Source: Synechococcus sp. PCC 7502 (GTDB taxonomy: Bacteria > Cyanobacteriota > Cyanobacteriia > Pseudanabaenales > Pseudanabaenaceae). From it: a DNA stretch of 64,000 nt. Below are positions 23,707 to 57,425 of this stretch, in pieces; position 1 is the stretch's first letter, and every line of letters begins with the position of its first letter. Both the position numbers and the translations under genes were made by a program. Location: NCBI RefSeq assembly GCF_000317085.1, contig NC_019702.1, positions 2,510,394-2,574,393 on the forward strand, written 5' to 3'. Under the pieces are notes generated by a model that was not told where the DNA came from, did not search any database, and was given only the letters and a program-made list of their open reading frames with translations.

Positions 23707-24924
23707 TTACTTTTTTTTGAGAATCACCAGAGTAATGTCATCGTAAATGCGGTGCTTACCAATATGCGATCGCACATCAGCGATGATAAGATTTTGGATT
23801 TCGTTAGCGGATAAATGACGATGTTGCTGTAAAAGGTGACAGAGCCGTTCTAAGCCATAGAGTTCACGATTGGAGTTTTCTGCTTCAGTAATGCCATCGG
23901 TATAAACTGCAAGTAGATCGCCCGCCTCCATATACATAGAACTTTCGCTTAAAAAGGGACGAATATCCTCTTCCATACCAATGGGGAAACCTAGATCGAT
24001 AGTATCAAAGAGTTCAATCTTGCCGTTTTGACGTACCAGCAACAGCATTTCATGTTGCCCACTTACCGTAACCTTACCGTGATCATAGTCAATGAGAGAT
24101 AGGGTCATAGACTTACTAGTAGCCATGCGCTGAATATTGCCGTATAAGGTTTGATTGAGAGCATGTAAAAAGACAGCAGGATCGTTGATATTAGCATTGA
24201 GTAAGGCTCGCACTGTCGTTTGTACCATGAGCATAATCGTGCCACTTTCTAAACCATGTCCCGTAACATCACCTATGCCGATCTTGACCCTTCCTCCTTG
24301 GTGTAGTACGTCATAATAGTCGCCACCAACCTTTTCTGCAGGTTCCATAAAACCGACAATTTCTAGTTCTGGATTTTGGCATAGCTCATCGGTTTTCGGT
24401 AAAATCATTTGCTGGAGTTGCCTAGAAATATTTAATTCCGTACTAAATCGTAGATTCTCGGCTTTAATTTGCTCGTATAGAGCTTGAATTTCTTCACTTT
24501 CTTTTTGATACTGTGCCACAACTGCTTCTAAGGCATTGAGTAATTTCGTTCCTGCGGCTGTAACGATTGTCCGTAAATAGGGATTATTGGCTTGTAACTC
24601 ACTGGCGGGACAAGAGATCAGCGATCGCACCGCACTAATAAAATCACAAACTTGGCGATCGACAAACAGTGGTTCCCCAAAGTATATCTTCTGTAAAGAT
24701 TGAGAAGGATTTCCCTGTAAACCCATGCTGGCATCTCCGTAAATAAGTCCCCGATGTGCTTTTCCCATAAGGTCAGCTAGGTTACTTAATTGTTCACGCA
24801 CAGCCTGCTGCTCCGTAATGTATTCTGGGCTAGCCAACCGTAGGGCAAACATGGCAATCCGTTGGGATAGCATGCGTTGGCGACCACTAATATTCACACT
24901 GACAGCATTCATGTTTACATCCAT
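23707..24924 (-). CDS. PilJ-type sensor domain fused to PP2C/SpoIIE phosphatase
   Basis: A 405-residue protein. Residues ~1-130 match the type IV pili methyl-accepting N-terminal domain (VNISGRQRMLSQRIAMFALR). A coiled-coil linker (~135-185) leads to a SpoIIE/RsbU-type phosphatase with the metal-binding motifs VGGDYYDVL, IGDVTGHGLESG, AVYTDGITEAEN and YDDITLVIL. There is no transmembrane segment. RsbU-like phosphatases dephosphorylate anti-sigma antagonists; the sensor domain may read a small ligand such as nitrate (as NIT-like domains do), but that is inference. It stands alone. Confidence 0.9.
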   Translation of the reverse strand: MDVNMNAVSVNISGRQRMLSQRIAMFALRLASPEYITEQQAVREQLSNLADLMGKAHRGLIYGDASMGLQGNPSQSLQKIYFGEPLFVDRQVCDFISAVRSLISCPASELQANNPYLRTIVTAAGTKLLNALEAVVAQYQKESEEIQALYEQIKAENLRFSTELNISRQLQQMILPKTDELCQNPELEIVGFMEPAEKVGGDYYDVLHQGGRVKIGIGDVTGHGLESGTIMLMVQTTVRALLNANINDPAVFLHALNQTLYGNIQRMATSKSMTLSLIDYDHGKVTVSGQHEMLLLVRQNGKIELFDTIDLGFPIGMEEDIRPFLSESSMYMEAGDLLAVYTDGITEAENSNRELYGLERLCHLLQQHRHLSANEIQNLIIADVRSHIGKHRIYDDITLVILKKK

Positions 24925-26356: not shown

Positions 26357-27085
26357 TTAAAAAGTATCAGATTGTGATTGTAGATACTCTAAAAAATCGA
26401 ATACCTCTGATGCACTTAACTGATCACGGGAACTCTTTTTATACTTGCGTTGGAGATAATCTTTTCCCTGTTGTTTTGTCCAGCCAATTCTTTCCATTTC
26501 TACCATAATTTGTGACAACTGACTGGATAGATCAATGGGTTCTGATTTATGTTGCTCTGGTTTTGCGGACTTTACAGCCGTAGGGCTTTCATATTTATCC
26601 GCATAACTATCAAGGGCTTGTTGTTGAAACTGCTGGGATTTATTTGCCTTACCAGATACTTCAGGTTCATATTTTTCTGTGTATTTAGGCTGAATATAAC
26701 TAGAAGGCTGCTCCTTAGATTCGTTAGCAGATTGATTAGATGCAAAGGATGATTCAAAAGTTGTACTGGTGGCAACAGATTCTAAAAGATGTGCTGCTGA
26801 CTTTGTTGGTGCTTTAAGGGCGGGTTGGTTGATTTGCGGCATCAACGTGGCTTGGATACCATAACTACTCTCAAAGGTAATGCCAAGGGTAGTTAAAGCT
26901 CGTTTTATCGCTCGATCCTCTGCAGTTTCCAGATCGGAGTCTACCGCCGTAGCTGTACTCAAAACCAGATCGTGATCTTTAATAATCGCTCGAAAGGTAT
27001 GCAGCCCATCAACTTTAGCCAGCATTTCGGTTACGATACTACCTTGGGGATATTGGGAACGGAACTGAGAAAATACCATTTCCAT
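26357..27085 (-). CDS. Possible Rad52/ERF-like protein with disordered linker, function unknown
   Basis: 242 residues in three parts. Residues ~1-75: a small alpha/beta domain (VDGLHTFRAIIKDHDLVLST, then ETAEDRAIKRALTTLGI); the A-E-D-R-A-x-x-R-A-L block resembles the end of Rad52/ERF-type single-strand annealing domains. Residues ~80-195: low-complexity Ser/Gln/Lys linker. Residues ~197-240: helical module (ERIGWTKQQGKDYLQRKY, LSASEVFDFLEYLQSQ) like C-terminal modules of such proteins. I have no proof of DNA binding; cyanobacterial homologs are usually called hypothetical. Confidence 0.55.
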   Translation of the reverse strand: MEMVFSQFRSQYPQGSIVTEMLAKVDGLHTFRAIIKDHDLVLSTATAVDSDLETAEDRAIKRALTTLGITFESSYGIQATLMPQINQPALKAPTKSAAHLLESVATSTTFESSFASNQSANESKEQPSSYIQPKYTEKYEPEVSGKANKSQQFQQQALDSYADKYESPTAVKSAKPEQHKSEPIDLSSQLSQIMVEMERIGWTKQQGKDYLQRKYKKSSRDQLSASEVFDFLEYLQSQSDTF

Positions 27086-27175: not shown

Positions 27176-28960
27176 TTAAAGCTCAAAATCATCGTCATCA
27201 TCGCTAAAAGTTGCCAGTTCAGCCTGAATATCTCGAAAGAAGTCGGATTCTGTAATTTGTGATACTTGTTTTTGGCGCTTCACCTCATCGATTTCAATTT
27301 TTAAGTCTTCTAACTGTTGTTTTAAGGATGTTTCTGCCAGTTTTGCTTTGGTATAGTCATCGGCAATACCTTCGTAATAAAGAATATTTTGATCGGCATC
27401 ACGGACAATTCTGACGCTTTCTCTGATCCATATAATCGAGCGATCGCGTCGGTAAGCTTGGTATTCAAAACCTGAAACCTCATCAGAGTTGGTCTCAGAA
27501 AAAAGTAAATTCAGTTCAGTTAAGCAATTGGGACTAACATATAAACTTTCCCCCGTTTGCTCTAAATGGGTAATCAAATCCTGCGGTGATTCATAACCAA
27601 ACATCTCTGCAAAAGACGGATTCACACTTAAAAATTTCCCCTTAGGAGTCATTTGAAAAATTCCTTCTACCGCATTTTCAAAAATACTGCGATAGTTTGC
27701 CTCGGCAATCCTCAATTCGTCGGCAATGAGACGGTACCTTTGTTCGCTGGCTTTAAGTCTGTCCACATAAATAAACGCAGTCATCCCCAGTCCTGTACTA
27801 ACTACACCTATAATCGGCGGTATAAGGGGAATCCACCAACTAAGTACAATAAATGCGCCATAATCACTCAGGGCGATCGCTCCCACAGTTAAAATTACAC
27901 CACTGAGGTTAGCTAGCCAAAATTGTTGAGCCGTGCGAAAATTTCGTAGTTGCCATGTAAAAATACCGATTCCAACAGTCCAAACAATAATCCATAGGTA
28001 TTCCCAAGGTTTCTCCCAAGTCGTAATACCTTCTCTCCCATCGATCGCAGCAGCTAAAACTTGACTAGCAACTTGAGCATGAATTTCCACACCCGCCGTT
28101 TGGCTAAAGCTAGTGCCAAAGTTACGATCTAAAGGAGTAGAGAAAAAGTCCTTTAAACTCACTGCCGTCACCCCAATTAGCACTAGGCGATCGCTAAATA
28201 AATCTTGGGGAATCTTATTTTGCAGCACATCTCGTAAACTAACCGTGCGAAATCTTGGCTCAGAACGGCGGTAATTTAATAAAACTTGATCACCTAAATC
28301 CTCAGCCCCCACATAACCACCATCATTACTCTTAAAATAATGGGGAGATTGCACAGCTTGGGGATAGCGCACATTAGGTTCGGCATTCAGAAACTCTAAT
28401 GCTGTATATAATCCTAAGCCTAAAATTGACTGCCCTTTTTCTAGCTCTGCCCCCCAAAAGCCCCGTCGAACTACACCATCATTATCAATAATTAGCTCAG
28501 CTGCACTTACCTGTCCTTGATCTTGGAGGGTTGGAGGAGGAGCGATCGCCCCAGTCCCAGATTTAATTGTTCTGACTCCCACAAGATTAGGAGTAGTCTT
28601 AAACACTTTAACTAATTCATCATGTCCAGGTTCAACGGGTAGATCTCGCACAATATCCAACCCAATTGCCCTAGGTTTTTGTTGACGGATTTTTGTAATT
28701 AACTCAGCAAGAATGCGATCGCTTATGGGATATTTTTCTAAGGTTTGAAGGTCAATTTCATCAATGCCAACAATAATTACCCGTTGATCTTGAGGTTCAC
28801 TAGGACGTAACTGTAACAACTGATCATAGGCAAACAGTTCAGAAAGTTGCAAAAACCCCAATGCCCTTAAAGCAATAACCAATAATACGGTAATTGGCGT
28901 TACTACCAGAACCCCTCGCCACGCCCAAATTTGGTTACGGATTTTTGCACGCATTAGCAA
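27176..28960 (-). CDS. CHASE2 receptor with PAS domain and no output domain
   Basis: 594 residues. An N-terminal membrane helix (VVTPITVLLVIALRALGFLQ) is followed by an extracytoplasmic CHASE2 domain (~45-310, e.g. RVIIVGIDEIDLQTL, DRLVLIGVTAVSLKDFFSTP). Three more membrane helices (~325-405), a PAS/PAC domain (YRSIFENAVEGIFQMTPKGK, ~430-550) and a C-terminal coiled coil with acidic tail complete it. No kinase, GGDEF, cyclase or phosphatase follows, unlike most CHASE2 proteins. The DUF928 gene ends five bases upstream, so the two are co-transcribed. It probably signals through an unlinked partner. Confidence 0.9.
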   Translation of the reverse strand: MLMRAKIRNQIWAWRGVLVVTPITVLLVIALRALGFLQLSELFAYDQLLQLRPSEPQDQRVIIVGIDEIDLQTLEKYPISDRILAELITKIRQQKPRAIGLDIVRDLPVEPGHDELVKVFKTTPNLVGVRTIKSGTGAIAPPPTLQDQGQVSAAELIIDNDGVVRRGFWGAELEKGQSILGLGLYTALEFLNAEPNVRYPQAVQSPHYFKSNDGGYVGAEDLGDQVLLNYRRSEPRFRTVSLRDVLQNKIPQDLFSDRLVLIGVTAVSLKDFFSTPLDRNFGTSFSQTAGVEIHAQVASQVLAAAIDGREGITTWEKPWEYLWIIVWTVGIGIFTWQLRNFRTAQQFWLANLSGVILTVGAIALSDYGAFIVLSWWIPLIPPIIGVVSTGLGMTAFIYVDRLKASEQRYRLIADELRIAEANYRSIFENAVEGIFQMTPKGKFLSVNPSFAEMFGYESPQDLITHLEQTGESLYVSPNCLTELNLLFSETNSDEVSGFEYQAYRRDRSIIWIRESVRIVRDADQNILYYEGIADDYTKAKLAETSLKQQLEDLKIEIDEVKRQKQVSQITESDFFRDIQAELATFSDDDDDFEL

Positions 28961-28965
28961 CTCAG

Positions 28966-29640
28966 TTAGTTAATCGGTTTGCAGCATTTTAGCAGGGGCT
29001 GGTTAGCGATCGCTTCAAATTTCACGGATTTCAATAATTCTCGCATCTGCACTGTGGCTTCTGGGGCTTTATCATCAACAAGAGTTTTAAGCATATCTAG
29101 CCAAATACCCTCTTGAGCATAGGTTTCTGCCGTTTGAGGCTGGCTATTAACCTTTGCACTTAAGCTGACTCGCCGCACAAATCCCTTAAGCTCGTTTGTC
29201 CCCTCAGTATTTCTAATTACCACCCGCCACTGATAATTTTTGCCAGTCTCTAAATTAGGAGCATCATTGGGCAGATTAAATTGGACAATACCACCAGTTG
29301 CTGTTAAATCAAAAGTAGTTTGAAAAACCTTATCATCCTGTTGATCAAATAGCTGAAATAGGGCTTTACCTTCTTTCATACTGGGAACATAAAATAAAAA
29401 ACTAGGCTTTGCCGACGCGGTTAAGGGAATAGTATCAGCAGGAACCAGAACAATAGGGCAGTTACTTTTACATGAATCCGATCTAGTGGTTCCCCCCAAG
29501 GAGTTTTGGGGAATACCCATGCCTGTGCGAGGTTTGTAAAAAAATCTCTGAAACTGACTAGGGTTGGCACTGCTCTCCAGACTTGGGGCAAGAAGAACAG
29601 CTAATAATAAAGAGCTAACTAGTAAAGGCTTGGCGATCAT
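28966..29640 (-). CDS. DUF928 exported protein
   Basis: The start is set at ATG 29640 with TAGGAG eight bases upstream; the frame itself opens at 29676. Signal peptide IAKPLLVSSLLLAVLLAPSL is followed by the DUF928 pattern: GMGIPQNSLGGTTRSDSC, PIVLVPADTIPLTASAKPSF, LFYVPSMKEGKALFQLFD and, further on, YQWRVVIRN. It is typically periplasmic, with a beta-sandwich reminiscent of fibronectin folds. DUF928 genes often sit next to CHASE2 genes in cyanobacteria, as here, so the product may be a periplasmic partner for the receptor. Activity unknown. Confidence 0.88.
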   Translation of the reverse strand: MIAKPLLVSSLLLAVLLAPSLESSANPSQFQRFFYKPRTGMGIPQNSLGGTTRSDSCKSNCPIVLVPADTIPLTASAKPSFLFYVPSMKEGKALFQLFDQQDDKVFQTTFDLTATGGIVQFNLPNDAPNLETGKNYQWRVVIRNTEGTNELKGFVRRVSLSAKVNSQPQTAETYAQEGIWLDMLKTLVDDKAPEATVQMRELLKSVKFEAIANQPLLKCCKPIN

Positions 29641-29850
29641 GGTTTTACTCCTAGGGAGAAAATTAAGCATAAACATCGATTGGAACTATAACCTACAATA
29701 TCGATTAAGGCAGATTAAAGCTGTGAGTTATATCACGAGACTTAATACTATTAATCACCCAATAAAATAACTAGTATCTAAATTTCAGAAAAATCTTAAT
29801 CTTTACTCTTGTCATTTTTGGTAACTCTGCTAATATGTATAAACCCCAAA

Positions 29851-29958: not shown

Positions 29959-30600
29959 CTAAGATTTAAGCAGGGTATCCAGTGCTAGATTTAACTTCAG
30001 CACATTTACTCCTTCTTCGCCAAAAATGCCAAGGAAACGTCCATCGGTATTCTGCTGAATCAAAACCTCCAACTGATTAGGGGATATTTTTCGACTTTGG
30101 GCAATTCGAGTAATTTGTGCTTTGGCAGCGAGCGGGGTAATGTGAGGATCAAGGCTAGAGCCGGAGGTATAAACTAAATCTGCGGTGGGCGTAATGCCAG
30201 CTTTTTGGAGTCGGGGAATCTCGCCTGCGATCGCTTTTTGGGGGTTTGGATCAGGTTTACCTTTGATGCGATCAATCAAATCAGGATTACTCGGAGCTAA
30301 ATTACTTGCCCCAGATACCCCCGTTTTCAGGATTCCAGCTTGATCATCTTTGGGATTGGCAGTGCTGTAGTTGGTAGTGCTAGGGCGGCTGTTAAAATAG
30401 CGATCGCTAGTAAAAGGCTGTCCAATTAAACCAGAGCCAATAACTTCACCTTGGGCATTACGAATTAAACTACCATTTGCCTGATTGGGGAATAATCCCT
30501 GTCCGATAGCTAACATAGAAAAGGGATAAATTACTGCTACCAAGAGCCAAATGATGATGGTAAAGCGGAGAGCTTTAGTAAGTTCACGAATGGGGTTCAT
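29959..30600 (-). CDS. kdpC: K+-transporting ATPase subunit C
   Basis: 213 residues with one N-terminal membrane helix (ALRFTIIIWLLVAVIYPFSM). Conserved KdpC blocks are GSGLIGQPFTSDRYFNSRPS (~55-74), ASGASNLAPSNPDLIDRI-like text (here SGASNLAPSNPDLIDRIK) and TSGSSLDPHITPLAAKAQI. KdpC stabilises the KdpFABC pump and links the channel-like KdpA to the P-type ATPase KdpB. Last gene of the operon, 15 bases after the kdpF-like gene. Confidence 0.96.
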   Translation of the reverse strand: MNPIRELTKALRFTIIIWLLVAVIYPFSMLAIGQGLFPNQANGSLIRNAQGEVIGSGLIGQPFTSDRYFNSRPSTTNYSTANPKDDQAGILKTGVSGASNLAPSNPDLIDRIKGKPDPNPQKAIAGEIPRLQKAGITPTADLVYTSGSSLDPHITPLAAKAQITRIAQSRKISPNQLEVLIQQNTDGRFLGIFGEEGVNVLKLNLALDTLLKS

Positions 30601-30615
30601 AGGTTTTCTTTGATT

Positions 30616-30906
30616 CTAAAATTTCTCTGGTTGAAACATGACAAAAAAGAGGTAGATGGAAAAACTCACAGTTACAATTCCCAAAATTCCAATGGCATAA
30701 GCCTGCGATCGCCCTAAAATTTCAGAGTTAACAGCATAGATTGCTGGAGCAATAATCAGGTTTAAGCACACCAACAGAAATAATTTGAGCGATCGGGAAT
30801 GCTTAGGACGAGTTAAAGAAAGTAAATGCTGCTTTAATTCATTTTTAAGTTCATTTTTAAATTGATTAGCAAATTGATTAGTAGAATTAGGCTTAATCTG
30901 AGTCAT
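30616..30906 (-). CDS. kdpF: KdpF-like subunit with extended cytoplasmic N-terminus
   Basis: ATG 30906 is chosen, because GGAG lies nine bases upstream; an in-frame ATG at 30921 overlaps the kdpB stop (TAATG). About 96 residues: a polar, Lys/Gln-rich N-terminal half, one hydrophobic helix (KLFLLVCLNLIIAPAIYAV) and a second (AIGILGIVTVSFSIYLFFVM) ending FQPEKF, the C-terminal mark of KdpF. Classical KdpF has about 30 residues and one helix, so this is a longer variant. Position between kdpB and kdpC supports the call. Confidence 0.75.
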   Translation of the reverse strand: MTQIKPNSTNQFANQFKNELKNELKQHLLSLTRPKHSRSLKLFLLVCLNLIIAPAIYAVNSEILGRSQAYAIGILGIVTVSFSIYLFFVMFQPEKF

Positions 30907-30920
30907 GTGTACATTCTCCA

Positions 30921-33017
30921 TTAGGTAATTGGCAGTAGAATATCGATAAATTTAATTGCCACAAACGGAGCGATAACTCCACCCAGTCCATAGATCAAAA
31001 TATTCCGTTGTAGAAGTTGATCCGCAGTCAAAGGACGAAATTTTACTCCAGTTAGGGCGATGGGAATTAGGGCAGGAATAATTAAAGCATTGTAAATAAG
31101 TGCAGAGAGAATTGCTGATTGCGGACTTTTTAGACCCATGATATTTAATGCTCCAATTCCAGCACTGGCAAAGATCGTGGGAATAATCGCAAAGTATTTA
31201 GCAATATCATTGGCAATGGAAAAAGTGGTTAATGCTCCCCGCGTGATTAGTAATTGCTTCCCGATCGCTACAAGATCAATCAGTTTAGTTGGGTCAGAAT
31301 CTAAATCCACCATGTTGGCAGCTTCCTTTGCGGCTTGGGTGCCAGAATTCATGGCTACGCCTACATTTGCTTGAGCCAGAGCAGGAGCGTCATTGGTGCC
31401 ATCCCCTGTCATCGCTACTAGCTTTCCTTGAGCTTGTTCATTGCGAATAACTTCAATTTTATCTTCGGGAGTAGCTTCGGCAATGAAATCATCGACCCCC
31501 GCTTCGGCGGCAATTACTGAAGCTGTAATGCCATTATCCCCAGTCAGCATGATGGTTCTCACTCCCATACGCCGCAGTTGATCAAATCTTTCGCGCAAGC
31601 CCGGTTTAACAATATCCTTGAGATAAATTACCCCATACAACTCATTCCCTTGACATAAACCTAAAGGCGTTCCACCGAGCCTGGATACTTGTTCATAGGC
31701 ATCATCAAATTCCTTTGGTACATTGCCACCGCGCGATCGCACAAAACCTCTAATTGCTTCGGTTGCGCCTTTACGCACTTCAGTTTGATCTGGCAAGTTA
31801 GTTCCACTCATGCGAGTTCTAGCGGAGAAATCAATTCCTTCAGCTTTACTAGGGTCAAAGTGTAAAGTTGCTCCCAATCTGTCTGCTAATTGCACAATGG
31901 ATTTACCTTCAGGGGTTTGATCGAAAAGGCTGGCTGCTAAAGCTACGGATGCCACTTGATCAATAGAATGTCCATTCACAGGGATGAATTGATCTGCTAG
32001 GCGGTTACCTAAGGTGATAGTTCCAGTTTTATCCAACACCAATGTATTAATATCTCCACAAGCCTCCACTGCTCGACCAGATGTGGCAATTACATTAAAC
32101 TGAGCTACCCGATCCATGCCTGCAATGCCGATCGCACTTAAAAGTCCACCAATAGTTGTAGGAATTAGAGCTACTAATAAAGAAACTAGAATAGCGATCG
32201 TCGTGGGAGTTTTTACATAGTTGGCAATGGGAGGAATCGTGGCTACTACGATTAGAAAGACCTGTGTTAGCACAGCCAAAAGAACCGTCAAGGCAATTTC
32301 GTTAGGAGTTTTCGTGCGTTCTGCGCCTTCAACTAAGGCAATCATCCGATCAATAAAACCTTTACCTGGGTCGGTAGTAATCCGAATAGTTAATTCATCG
32401 GAAACTATGCGCGTTCCACCCGTCACCGAACTTGCAATATCCGTCCCCGGTTGTTTGAGTACTGGTGCTGACTCCCCTGTAATTGCAGACTCATCCACTG
32501 ATGCCACTCCATCAATCACTTCCCCATCGGCGGGAATCATTTCACCTATTATTACTTTGACTAAGTCCCCCCGTCGCAGTTCCGTAGAGCTAATATTTTG
32601 GATGGAGCCATCGGGTAGAACCTTACGGGCAAGGGTATCAGTGCGGGTAGTTCTTAAGGAGTCAGCCTGTGCTTTTCCTCTACCTTCAGCGATCGCTTCG
32701 GCAAAGTTAGCAAAAATTACTGTAAAAAACAGAATGATTGTAATTAATCCATTGAGAATACGTTCTTGATTCACATCCCTTGCAACGGTGCCAAATAAAT
32801 TGGGATCAATAGTGACAAGAAAGGTGACAATCGTGCCAATCCAGACTAAGAACATCACTGGGTTTCTAGCAGCAATTCTGGGATTGAGCTTCACAAAAGC
32901 TGATTTAATCGCCCTAGGATATAGCCCTACCATTGAGGCTTTGGGGGTATGTCTGCGAGAGTCACGAGTACCACTGGGAACCTTACTAGGAATTTTAGGA
33001 GAAGATGGAGTATTCAT
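30921..33017 (-). CDS. kdpB: K+-transporting P-type ATPase subunit B
   Basis: 698 residues, the normal length. P-type ATPase marks: TGES in [15 protein letters not shown], phosphorylation motif [11 protein letters not shown], nucleotide-binding region ([17 protein letters not shown]) and hinge [20 protein letters not shown]. Hydrolyses ATP to drive K+ uptake through KdpA. The gene follows kdpA after 176 bases and is translationally coupled to the kdpF-like gene. No kdpD/kdpE two-component genes are seen nearby, so control must come from elsewhere. Confidence 0.97.
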
Positions 33018-33193
33018 TTTTTCTCTAAACTATTAAGAAGTATGGAAGAATATTGGAAAGAATGAAAGAGAATTGAGTATTCTGTGTAGAGATACCTTAT
33101 TAGGAAGTTGAAATGAAGTTGAGATCGAAAAAAGTATTATTTTCAACTAGAATTCACACTTAAATTTTTCACTTTAAACTTAGTTAAATTTAG

Positions 33194-34897
33194 TTAGTAA
33201 CTAAGTTGAAAAGCTTCAGCAATTGGTCCTAAAGCTAATACAGGAAAGAAAGTCAAGGCAGCCATAATCAAAATCACTCCCGCAGTCACAGATGTGAATA
33301 GAATCGTATCAGTGCGAAGTGTACCTGCAGTCATGGCAACGGTTTGTTTACGGGACATGCCATCTGCCAATAAAAGTAGGGCAACTATGGGAATATATCG
33401 ACCTCCCAATAAACTGACGGAAGTACTAAGGTTCCACCATAATCCTGTGGCGGCAGGTTGACTATCCACTAATCCTTCAAACCCAGAACCATTATTTGCT
33501 GCGGCTGAAGCATATTCATAAATTACTTGGGAGAGTCCATGAAAACCGGGGTTGCTGATTCCTGCTAGTTGATCGGGAAATGCTAGGGCGATCGCTCCGG
33601 GGATGAGGATAAAAATTGGATGCACTAGCAAAATCAAAAAACTAGTTAGGACTACTTCCTGCTTTTCAATCTTCCGTCCCAAAAATTCGGGAGTTCTACC
33701 TACCATTAACCCAGTGACAAATACCGCCAAAATTGAATAGGCATATAGGTATGCGGTTCCCGTCCCCTGTCCACCCCAAAGAATTTGCAAAAACAAATTA
33801 GATAAAAATACAAACCCACCATTTGACATAAAAGAATCAAGCATAGAATTAACAGCACCAGTCATAGTTCCACTGGTCGTCACCGCAAATAAAGCCGACT
33901 GTGCCCAACCAAATCGTACTTCTTTACCTTCTAAATTTGGACTTTGCCCACCAAGTAGGGTATTGACCAGAGGGTTCCCTTGATACTCACCAACTCCCGT
34001 AACGATAATGAAAGCGACATAGATAATGAACACCAAACCAAACAATAACCACGATTGTTTACGATTATTAGTGATCTCACCATAGGTGAAAATCAGTGCT
34101 GTAGGAATCGAAATCATCGCCAAAATCTGAATTAGATTCGTGAAGTTATTAGGATTCTCAAAGGGATGGGCGGAGTTAATGGCAAAGAACCCTCCACCAT
34201 TTTCACCAAGTTGCTTGATGATCTCAAAATGTGCCACTGGTCCGATGGCTATTGCCTGACTCAGATTAGGATTTTCTAAGGTGGGGACAATAATAGGTAC
34301 AGATAGGGTCTCAGGCACGCCAGCCGCCATAAATACGATCGCCCCGACAATACTAATCGGTAATAAAATCCGCGTAATCGCTAGGGTTAAATCACTATAA
34401 AAATTACCCAAGGGTCTGCCCGTTAAACCTCGGATAAAAGCGATCGCCACCGCAATCCCCGTTCCCGCAGAGGTAAAAAACATAAACCCTAGTCCCAGAG
34501 TTTGAGTGAAGTAACTGAGAGTAGTTTCCCCTGAATAATGCTGCTGATTGGTATTAGTCATAAAGGAAATAGTTGTATGCAGAGCCGTATCCCAAGTGGG
34601 AGCAGGTAAACCCGTAGGATTTAAGGGTAGTAATCCTTGCAACATCAGCATTAAAAATAAAAACACTGACATAATCAAGTTGCTGTATAAAACTCCCCCA
34701 GCATATTGCCAGCCATTCTTAGGGTTTTCGGGATTAATTCCACTCAACCGAAAAATTAATGCTTCAATTGGTCTCAAAACTGGATCAAGTAAGGTCTTTT
34801 GTCCTAAATAAACCTTGGCGATATAACTACCAAAAATCGGGGCGATCGCCACAATCAATATCAGTGTTAGCCCTATTTGTAGCCATCCTTGTAGCAT
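33194..34897 (-). CDS. kdpA: K+-transporting ATPase subunit A
   Basis: 567-residue membrane protein with four channel-like repeats. Selectivity-filter-type motifs: [11 protein letters not shown] (~112-122), [19 protein letters not shown] (~230-248), [12 protein letters not shown] (~340) and [12 protein letters not shown] (~464-475). It binds K+ with micromolar affinity and forms the entry path of the Kdp pump. First gene of the operon; its promoter must lie in the region after 34898. Confidence 0.97.
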
Positions 34898-54488: not shown

Positions 54489-57425
54489 ATGAAATTAAAG
54501 GCTGCAAACAAGTTATTAAGTGAGCCAGAAATTGAGAACTTGGGAGAACTCAAGCCATTTTATTTTGAATTACTAAAACAGCAGAAATTACGATCAAAGC
54601 TAGAAAAGTTTCGCAAAAGTGAAGATAATGGCATCGGTGTTTTTATTCTATCAAAGGAAGGATACTTTATTGATGCCAGCTATGGATTTTCTGAGCTGTT
54701 AGGTTATTCCACAGAAGAATTGAGAAATATCCAAATCGAGAGCTTAATTCTTCCCGAAGAGAGACCAAAGCTACAGACAACTATATTCAAGTTAGTTTCA
54801 GGGCAATCCCATCAAGAGGACTCACGCCATTGTTGCATTACTAAGGATGGGCAGTTAGTGAGTTTGGCATTGAATCTGTTTTTATTAGATCAAAGATTAA
54901 GTCCGGGAACTGAAATACATCTGATTGTCAAATTTGAAGACCATACCATTGGCGATCGCCTCGAAAAATCTCTACAAGCTTCAGTACAAACCTGTCAATA
55001 CCTGTTTGATGGTTCTACGGTTCCGCAAATAATTTATAATCTCCAAACCTTAGCTGTGATCGCAGTTAACGATGCGGCAATATATCACTATGGTTATGAT
55101 CGCTCTGAGTTCCTCACCCAAGATATGAGTGTGCTTGCTCCATTAGGACATAGCTTTGATCAATTCTGTGAGCAGCATCTTAAGAAAAGCGGACAGCTTA
55201 TAGATGTGGAAGTTAAAAGTCTGGAACTAATCTATAATGACTTGCCTGCCCAAATTCTATCCATCCGAGATATCACGGAGCAGAGGCGCACCAAACAGGC
55301 TTTAGATGCCCTAAGGCAGGCAGAAGAGGACTATCGAGGTATTTTTGAAAATGCGGTGGAAGGAATATTCCAAACTTCGGAATCAGGAAAGTACTTAAAA
55401 GTAAATCCGATGTTGGCATCCATCTATGGCTACGATTCTCCGGAGGATTTGATGAATGGCATTACCGATATTGCTAACCAATTATATGTTAATCCCCAAA
55501 GGCGACTGGAGTTTGTAGAGTTGCTGAAACAACAGGATGCAGTATTGGGGTTTGATTCGGAAGTCTATCGTAAGGATGGCAGTAAGGTCTGGATTTCTGA
55601 AAATGTGCGGTCAATTCGAGATACCTCTGGCAAGCTTTTAAGATATGAAGGCACAGTTGTTGACATCACAGAAGTGAAACTGTCGGAAGAAGCTCTACGT
55701 CTAAGTGAAGAACGATTTCGACTCACCTTTAACTATGCTCCCATTGGCATGATGATTAAGGCTCTGAATGGGCAATCTGTGCAGGTAAATCAGGCGATCG
55801 CTCAAATTTTAGGCTATACCCCCAGTGAACTCTTAGAACTCACCTGCGTGGATATTACCCATCCTGAAGATTTGCCCACTAGCTTAGAAATGCGCCAAAG
55901 ATTATTGGCAGGTGAATTTCCCAGTTATCAAATTCCTAAAAGATATATTCGCAAGGATGGCACATTTGTAGATACTTTACTGCATGTTTCTCTCACTAGG
56001 GATGGAAATGGAGAGCCAATTCACTTTATTGATCAAATTGAAGATGTCAGCGATCGCAAGCGTGCAGAGGAAAAAATCTCCTATCTGGCGTTCCATGATC
56101 CTTTGACGGGATTACCCAATCGGGCTTTATTTAACGATCGCCTCAATCAAGCTTTGGCACTAGCCAGCAGATTACATCAGGAGCAATCCAATTTCAAAAC
56201 TCTATTAGCAGTAATGTTTATTGATTTGGATCGGTTTAAGGTTGTCAATGATTCCCTTGGTCATGCTATGGGCGATCGCCTACTGCAATTAGTGGCAGAG
56301 AGATTTACTAGAAATATGCGTAAAAGTGACACCATTGCCCGCATGGGTGGGGATGAGTTTATGCTTCTATTACCTGAAGTGAAGCAAGTGGAAGATGTAG
56401 TCAAAGTTGCGGAAAAGATTCTAAAATCATTATCCCAGCCATTCCATTTGGATCACCATGAAATGTATATCACTGCCAGTATTGGTATTTGCCTATATCC
56501 CCATGATGGTGATGATGGTGACACGTTACTGAAAAATGCTGATGTAGCAATGTATCGGGCAAAAGAACAAGGGCGTAATCATTATCAGATTTTTACCCAA
56601 TCTATGCATGAACGGGCATTTGAATGGATGTTTATGGAAAGTTCCATCCGTCGAGCGATCGCCCAAGATGAGTTTCTGGTTTACTATCAGCCACAGTTAG
56701 ATTTACAAACGGGGAAAGTGATTTCCATGGAAGCTCTAATTCGCTGGCAAACTGAATCTGGATTTATTCCTCCCAATCAGTTTATTCCCATTGCCGAAGA
56801 GTATGGCTTAATTATTCCCATTGGCGAATGGGTATTACGCACTGCCTGCACCCAAAATAAGCTATGGCAAAACATGGGATTACCACCTATTCAGATTGCT
56901 GTTAATTTTTCTGCTAAGCAATTCCAAGACCCACAGCTATTACAAAAAGTAAGTCGGATCATTGCTGAAACCAGACTTGCGCCCCGATACCTAGAAATTG
57001 AAATTACTGAAAGTGCGGTGATGAAAGATGAGTATGCCGCCGCCGAAACCTTGCAAAGTTTAAAAAATATGGGCGTTCGCATCTCCATTGATGATTTTGG
57101 TAAAGGCTATTCTTCGCTCAGTCATTTAAAGAAATTTCCCGTGCAGAAGCTGAAAATAGATGCTGCTTTTATTCGAGAAATTCCCCGCAATAAAGATGAT
57201 GCCGCCATTACTACGGCAATTATAGCGATCGCCCACACGTTAAATTTGAAAGCGATCGCCGAAGGTGTAGAGACCCCAGAACAATTAGAATTTTTGCGCG
57301 CTCTTGGTTGTGATGGGATTCAAGGCTATATATTTAGTCCTGCAGTCACGACCGAGGTGGCAACAAAAATTTTGCATGATCAAAGACATTTTCTCGCTTC
57401 AGATTTGATCAAAGGTAAGATTTAA
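54489..57425 (+). CDS. Multi-PAS GGDEF-EAL signalling protein
   Basis: 978 residues, no membrane helix. PAS-like domains at ~45-150, ~160-265, ~280-395 and ~405-525 (e.g. YRGIFENAVEGIFQTSESGK, FRLTFNYAPIGMMIKALNGQ), then a GGDEF domain with an intact ARMGGDEFMLLLPE and an EAL domain with EALIRWQTE, EITESAVMKDE, DDFGKGYSSLSHLK and QGYIFSPAV. Both c-di-GMP synthesis and breakdown are possible. The third PAS resembles the PAS of the CHASE2 protein at 27176-28960. Ribosome-binding site AGGA at 54480-54483. Confidence 0.93.
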   Translation: MKLKAANKLLSEPEIENLGELKPFYFELLKQQKLRSKLEKFRKSEDNGIGVFILSKEGYFIDASYGFSELLGYSTEELRNIQIESLILPEERPKLQTTIFKLVSGQSHQEDSRHCCITKDGQLVSLALNLFLLDQRLSPGTEIHLIVKFEDHTIGDRLEKSLQASVQTCQYLFDGSTVPQIIYNLQTLAVIAVNDAAIYHYGYDRSEFLTQDMSVLAPLGHSFDQFCEQHLKKSGQLIDVEVKSLELIYNDLPAQILSIRDITEQRRTKQALDALRQAEEDYRGIFENAVEGIFQTSESGKYLKVNPMLASIYGYDSPEDLMNGITDIANQLYVNPQRRLEFVELLKQQDAVLGFDSEVYRKDGSKVWISENVRSIRDTSGKLLRYEGTVVDITEVKLSEEALRLSEERFRLTFNYAPIGMMIKALNGQSVQVNQAIAQILGYTPSELLELTCVDITHPEDLPTSLEMRQRLLAGEFPSYQIPKRYIRKDGTFVDTLLHVSLTRDGNGEPIHFIDQIEDVSDRKRAEEKISYLAFHDPLTGLPNRALFNDRLNQALALASRLHQEQSNFKTLLAVMFIDLDRFKVVNDSLGHAMGDRLLQLVAERFTRNMRKSDTIARMGGDEFMLLLPEVKQVEDVVKVAEKILKSLSQPFHLDHHEMYITASIGICLYPHDGDDGDTLLKNADVAMYRAKEQGRNHYQIFTQSMHERAFEWMFMESSIRRAIAQDEFLVYYQPQLDLQTGKVISMEALIRWQTESGFIPPNQFIPIAEEYGLIIPIGEWVLRTACTQNKLWQNMGLPPIQIAVNFSAKQFQDPQLLQKVSRIIAETRLAPRYLEIEITESAVMKDEYAAAETLQSLKNMGVRISIDDFGKGYSSLSHLKKFPVQKLKIDAAFIREIPRNKDDAAITTAIIAIAHTLNLKAIAEGVETPEQLEFLRALGCDGIQGYIFSPAVTTEVATKILHDQRHFLASDLIKGKI

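Follow-up and report, generated by a model that had tools for sequence, protein, structure and literature searches.

The CHASE2 adenylate/guanylate cyclases CyaD1, CyaD2 and CyaK of S. meliloti depend on the outer-membrane envelope protein NsrA, which is reported to pass the signal (PMC13001267), and in Leptolyngbya Dgc2 a CHASE2 domain, membrane helices and a PAS domain precede a terminal GGDEF domain (PMC10581220). In magnetotactic bacteria a CHASE2-adenylate cyclase gene follows mtxA; the MtxA protein of Magnetospirillum (4z29) is exported and combines an Ig-like with a helical (TPR) part, and an mtxA deletion is reported to have no clear phenotype under standard conditions (PMC4439547). 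The receptor studied here is encoded in a window of 64,000 nucleotides, the whole stretch of DNA that was analysed, from Synechococcus sp. PCC 7502. It shares the CHASE2 input with the S. meliloti cyclases and the order of CHASE2, membrane helices and PAS with Dgc2; unlike them it has neither the cyclase nor the final GGDEF domain, and PAS and a conserved tail make up its end. Its upstream neighbour encodes a DUF928 protein. The label NOSP7 presumably stands for Nostoc punctiforme. A five-gene array of that organism, discussed for its WD40 proteins, includes a single CHASE2 sensor and a single DUF928 protein; the DUF928-CHASE2 neighbourhood is thereby already in print, and the excerpt on the array names no tail or ATPase (PMC5587647).

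The receptor is read from the reverse strand, as are the DUF928 and slr1353-family genes beside it, in an open reading frame of 594 aa (27176..28960). Its same-genus ortholog starts at an ATG two codons downstream of the TTG, which makes the ATG at 28954 the probable start. The sequence-only reading had placed the end of the DUF928 gene five bases before the receptor; the adjacency and a DUF928 start at 29640 held, while the gap is likely 11 rather than 5 bases, given the ATG start. The same reading had described CHASE2, four membrane helices, PAS and a coiled coil that no kinase, GGDEF or cyclase follows; Pfam, NCBIfam, hydropathy and an AF2 model confirmed this architecture, in which the end is helical and catalytic domains are absent. 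An N-terminal membrane helix (residues 15-33, 28862..28918; hydropathy and AF2 model) is followed by the mostly extracytoplasmic CHASE2 domain (residues 24-331, 27968..28891; PF05226, E 1.8e-65) and by three further membrane helices (residues 317-400, 27761..28012, in the AF2 model; hydropathy finds 347-397). The model helices at 15-33, 317-340, 344-373 and 380-431 give, together with hydropathy, the layout of CHASE2 receptors, in which CHASE2 stands between one and three membrane helices. The PAS domain (residues 420-545, 27326..27703) was recognised by the PAS S-box model (TIGR00229, 2.7e-15) and by PF13426 (3.4e-08), with further Pfam PAS models inside 422-537, and it is above profile cut-off in both Pfam and NCBIfam. 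After the membrane helices the AF2 model shows PAS strands over 435-532 and then helices at 536-565 and 573-582. The conserved tail spans residues 540-594 (27179..27343) and consists of a coil of the form L..EID...R...V and then ITESDFFRDIQAEL; over the last ~60 residues the pLDDT of the model is low, 36-51 by blocks. Beyond the PAS domain there was no Pfam match at E<=0.1, and neither Pfam nor NCBIfam gave a C-terminal kinase, GGDEF or cyclase domain; whole-length HK and GGDEF models of NCBIfam match through the PAS part, far under their cut-offs. Foldseek returned a single match at E<=0.001 for the receptor model, and the rows listed were mainly PAS domains.

The DUF928 protein (28966..29640; PF06051, 4.2e-38) scores 131.4 bits against a curated cut-off of 26. 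Its open frame begins at 29676, and its ortholog starts at the Met that corresponds to 29640; the N-terminus carries a hydrophobic, signal peptide-like stretch. In the AF2 model (pLDDT 83) it forms a beta-sandwich with three helices, for which Foldseek found eight matches at E<=0.001, to weak Ig-like and lipid-binding folds. The best VIA match was MtxA (4z29; Z 7.6, rmsd 4.2, 139 aligned), although a Z of less than 8 can reflect no more than a widespread arrangement. As with mtxA, a CHASE2 gene comes after the DUF928 gene, and the modelled sandwich with helices may share the fold of the MtxA C-terminal domain; there was no sequence match to 4z29, and because of the Z below 8 and this missing match we treat the likeness as a lead. 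Downstream of the receptor lies an slr1353-family gene (26357..27085; NF058667, 1.2e-35), possibly co-transcribed with it, and ~1.4 kb past that gene Pfam finds a PilJ-type sensor domain joined to a SpoIIE phosphatase (23707-24924). The genes at 29959-34897 on the same strand we take to be kdpC, kdpB and kdpA, with a small ORF between kdpB and kdpC.

Both CHASE2 and DUF928 were present in 38 of 38 genomes of the window's family, and among the 150 CHASE2 matches listed for these genomes at least 51 lie within 1.3 kb of DUF928. The pairing used these 150 CHASE2 rows and 90 DUF928 rows with weaker DUF928 rows omitted, and pairs may be undercounted. DUF928 is upstream and on the same strand in 43 of the 51, counted by eye, and the gene order thus supports the DUF928-CHASE2 pair as a recurrent unit. 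By Pfam, 28 of the 51 CHASE2 proteins carry Guanylate_cyc, 16 GGDEF (EAL in 3) and 3 HisKA/HATPase/Response_reg, and CHAT (L108) and a protein kinase (L114) occur once each, placed before CHASE2. A catalytic or CHAT domain is therefore found in 49 of 51, and the two with PAS and no output are the window receptor and its same-genus ortholog.

This distribution, and the nesting of the receptor's CHASE2 part among cyclases, are what would be expected if the receptor were a CHASE2-cyclase or CHASE2-GGDEF protein that had been truncated, had lost its function and was decaying. We find that reading hardly credible in view of the ortholog from another species of this genus, which at 81% identity shares both the architecture and the kind of end. 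On its contig (L073, 6.5 kb) the order is DUF928, receptor and slr1353-like gene (the last identified by eye), as in the window, with different flanking genes. Of four receptor segments compared with the ortholog, the coil and tail ranked first in identity (86%) and last in dN (0.072 at a dS of 1.27, against dN 0.118 and dS 1.67 for the whole protein; dS is near saturation), and the tail belongs to a widespread module (see below). On these grounds truncation was rejected: the receptor does not simply stop, as had been read, and its end is itself a conserved module. The earlier reading had named, as evidence against itself, homologs with a C-terminal output domain that truncation had removed here. 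Half of this was borne out: relatives with outputs were indeed found, but in this receptor the conserved module has taken the output's place.

A tree of 100 CHASE2 rows places the window receptor and its ortholog inside a 31-row clade (support 100/99), in which all labelled other members (9) are cyclases and the rest are unlabelled. Their neighbours are proteins of genomes G001 and G005, the former a cyclase. Output labels in this tree were set by locus and length class, many rows being unlabelled ('oth'), among them truncated window and ortholog copies; some proteins are repeated and some long branches flagged. Because the window CHASE2 nests inside the cyclase clade, the receptor evidently arose from a DUF928-linked CHASE2-cyclase whose cyclase gave way to a module of PAS and tail. 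The remaining 14 CHASE2-tail rows branch elsewhere in the tree, where one fork is open, and along the starred branches the tail label must change at least twice. Since the window receptor stands apart from these proteins, the tail was captured at least twice by a CHASE2 front end.

When the last 50 aa of the receptor were used as a single query, 117 of 291 cyanobacterial genomes matched (E<=0.01), with up to 70% identity outside the genus. A tail profile of 50 rows, in which five positions (L, E, D, V, F) do not vary, matched in 123 of the 291 (E<=1e-3). The window tail fits this profile, which we name the ITESD-FF tail module, with E 1.5e-21; it is one of the 50 rows, and the single-sequence search preceded the profile. 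As a control, the reversed profile matched 0 of 2149 ORFs and the true profile 115. A second sample of 339 genomes of the phylum, partly overlapping the first and searched at a stricter cut-off (E<=1e-6), gave the tail in 41. One tail match (G033:C2:3118817-3118963) was reported with an in-frame TAG by the single-sequence search, but not so by the profile search. Forty tail loci were picked by hand from single-sequence matches for diversity and, in some cases, for two tails, not for the ATPase described below. They encode 48 tail proteins, of which 47 have the tail at most 35 residues from the C-terminus and one, L236, has a receiver domain after it; the tail mostly follows HAMP or PAS (Pfam: HAMP 35, dCache_1 23, PAS up to 18; also HisKA 4, HATPase_c 2, Response_reg 5). 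A full-receptor search of named genomes gave 15 loci, matched via the PAS part and hence uninformative. By blastp the window PAS is, outside the genus, closest to the PAS domains of such PAS-tail proteins, and its PAS-tail stretch is collinear with theirs, near full-length matches being 43-52% identical. None of the Pfam, NCBIfam and PDB models searched here was found to cover the tail (best E 0.19 in a PDB search with the tail profile), and in the titles and abstract openings listed from open-licence literature we found no description of the tail or its ATPase link.

An all-against-all comparison of genes at the 40 loci gave as commonest tail neighbour one subfamily (A6) of ~250-aa proteins like MinD/ParA, with 20 members in 19 loci. 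All 20 carry RGGTGKS, and the P-loop (Walker A-type) motif together with a MinD-like profile match places them in the MinD/ParA superfamily (PDB 1hyq, E 3.9e-22; 4v03, E 2.5e-19, the latter being FlhG in our reading of "site-determining protein"). The window's genome has one such ATPase (G000:C3:1127502-1128251, 250 aa, HSYRGGTGKSN; E 7e-117, the next of nine matches being 2e-11), 1.4 Mb from the receptor. It falls below the NCBIfam minD cut-offs (79.9 against 201.75 bits for minD_arch, 50.9 against 212.9 for minD_bact), and neither of the two members scanned reached any NCBIfam cut-off.

The ATPase is found in 121 of 291 genomes (E<=1e-50), and its distribution follows that of the tail closely: 116 genomes have both, 7 the tail only, 5 the ATPase only and 163 neither (Fisher 2.5e-65, ignoring relatedness). 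Within the window's family, represented by 34 of the 291 genomes, the counts are 7, 2, 0 and 25 in the same order (p 6.7e-06, likewise ignoring relatedness). One of the two tail-only family genomes rests on a weak match, and the other is that of the same-genus ortholog, which is 85% complete and in which the ATPase was not found. At genus level, with the single-sequence tail set, 59 of 130 genera have both, 2 the tail only, 4 the ATPase only and 65 neither; the tallies by genus and by family were made by hand, and a genome with no listed match was counted as lacking. Each of the 41 genomes with a tail in the second sample, 17 of them outside the first, has the ATPase, which occurs alone in 5. 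For 29 of the 61 tails an ATPase gene is no more than 5 kb away, against a crude expectation of 0.16. One protein of 749 aa (L289:6079-8328) contains both partners, the tail at residues 378-425 (profile E 4.3e-11) and the ATPase at 489-741 (7e-109), along with HisKA-like and receiver domains; its tail is outside the 50 profile rows.

Sixteen distinct CHASE2-tail proteins, the window's included, were collected from eight families, a selected set in which loci had been chosen for a tail ORF of ~600 aa or a nearby ATPase. Seven have an ATPase gene downstream on their own strand, at a distance of 48-556 bases, and nine have no ATPase within 1 kb: in one it is 8.9 kb away, and in eight, the window receptor among them, it is absent from the stretch fetched. 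DUF928 is within 0.9 kb of 11 of the 16: the window receptor and its ortholog share its strand, while for the other nine it is divergent upstream. It is near six of the seven with an adjoining ATPase. Since both genes adjoin CHASE2-tail genes, DUF928, CHASE2-tail receptor and ATPase make up one locus in other cyanobacteria. In L313, which L308 resembles, a Ser/Thr kinase precedes the tail, and L297 has no Pfam domain besides CHASE2. Several of these proteins repeat the second half of the tail (LQxKAxxLR): 25 profile matches were counted in 15 proteins, the window receptor being left out, against 0.05 in shuffled ends. A hand-made regular expression, written after viewing the sequences and replaced by the profile count, gave 11 repeats in the same 15 proteins against 0.01 shuffled, and 8 of the proteins had none.

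The tail might instead be a generic coiled-coil element for dimerisation or localisation, with the ATPase merely co-inherited in receptor-rich lineages. It does begin as a coiled coil, co-occurrence tests made with no tree correction can mislead, and some tail proteins have another output; because the tail is also found with HisKA, Response_reg or a Ser/Thr kinase, it need not be the sole output of a receptor. We regard this explanation as unlikely nevertheless, though it is the one to be taken most seriously: the invariant residues exceed the conservation of a coil, presence and absence of tail and ATPase nearly match within a single family, almost half of the tails in the second sample are close to an ATPase gene and one protein fuses both, and the LQxKAxxLR part is repeated in several CHASE2-tail proteins.

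We therefore favour, with a probability of about 0.7, a reading in which the DUF928-CHASE2 pair does the sensing for a signalling system of three parts and the tail is an output that acts on the MinD/ParA-like ATPase. The DUF928 protein, apparently exported and Ig-like, and the CHASE2 domain would form an envelope sensor, sensing together in the periplasm, and the signal would travel along the membrane helices into PAS and the coiled coil. The last ~50 residues would then be the output and recruit or regulate the soluble ATPase. The contact between tail and ATPase, the direction of signalling and the downstream act of the ATPase are what we infer from the genomic patterns. Of the earlier proposal of a periplasmic pair that signals by direct contact, the recurrent pair stands and a receptor with no enzyme of its own fits signalling by contact; the partner has changed, the MinD-like ATPase encoded elsewhere being best supported.

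It had also been suggested that the GGDEF-EAL protein at 54489-57425, with its similar PAS, might be that partner. The likeness is real (44.9% over 138 aa), and this protein and the SpoIIE-type phosphatase are both encoded in the window, either of which the receptor could in principle reach by contact. Nine PAS-tail proteins elsewhere, however, have PAS domains closer to that of the receptor (47-53%; other PAS-tail proteins rank below the GGDEF-EAL pair), and the one same-genus contig, over its 6.5 kb, has DUF928, receptor and slr1353-like gene side by side, amid other genes. We hold a partner within the window to be very improbable and return to the ATPase as the favoured target.

Near ATPase or tail genes lie genes for glutaminase, for symporters of the glutamate type along with solute-binding proteins, and for ABC exporters. 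Glutaminase makes up 12 of 32 immediate upstream same-strand genes at tail loci, and a cluster that joins RGGTGKS ATPase, glutaminase and tail receptor recurs (L198, L199, L203, L207, L211, L215, L217-L221, L230), which may link the system to glutamine/glutamate. Tail receptors also adjoin a Na:dicarboxylate symporter (6/32) and a family-3 solute-binding protein (6/31) in L200, L201, L202, L205, L210 and L212, loci assigned from six-member clusters, L200 having been checked. In L291 (annotated) and in L292, L290 and L286 (by clustering) the ATPase is grouped with ABC exporters (one with a C39 peptidase domain), HlyD, a TolC-like OEP, a cNMP-binding protein and DUF7005. The fusion locus (L289:1-8775) is a cluster of receiver, HisKA, PAS and tail proteins with the tail-ATPase fusion and a transporter, presumably SulP-like. 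One tail receptor upstream of an ATPase gene (L305:5608-7422) has a Nif11 domain at its extreme N-terminus, before dCache-HAMP.

Apparent orphan receptors, usually set aside as output-less, can hide a shared module, here one present in 123 of 291 and 41 of 339 genomes. If the ATPase link holds, a MinD-like ATPase joins the short list of receptor outputs, many tail matches gain a named candidate partner, and exchange of the receptor end explains the wiring of DUF928-CHASE2 sensors to cyclase, GGDEF, kinase or ATPase. Beyond this locus we lean, by a small measure, towards a wider and so far undescribed class, in which many kinds of cyanobacterial receptor (CHASE2, Cache-HAMP, PAS, GAF) would converge through a shared, sometimes repeated C-terminal motif on one dedicated MinD-like ATPase, a nucleotide-dependent switch that would replace or stand beside a kinase, cyclase or chemotaxis complex.

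The ATPase belongs to the same superfamily as MinD and FlhG (1hyq, 4v03), and it differs from MinD in carrying RGGTGKS throughout its subfamily and in scoring below the minD cut-offs. Among the 24 Pfam families found in the 48 tail proteins there was no MCP signalling domain. In methyl-accepting chemoreceptors with CheW/CheA, inputs of many kinds share one cytoplasmic end and work with a soluble partner that uses ATP. The tail receptors resemble them in outline, with a candidate ATPase partner, diverse Cache, HAMP and PAS inputs and a common cytoplasmic end.
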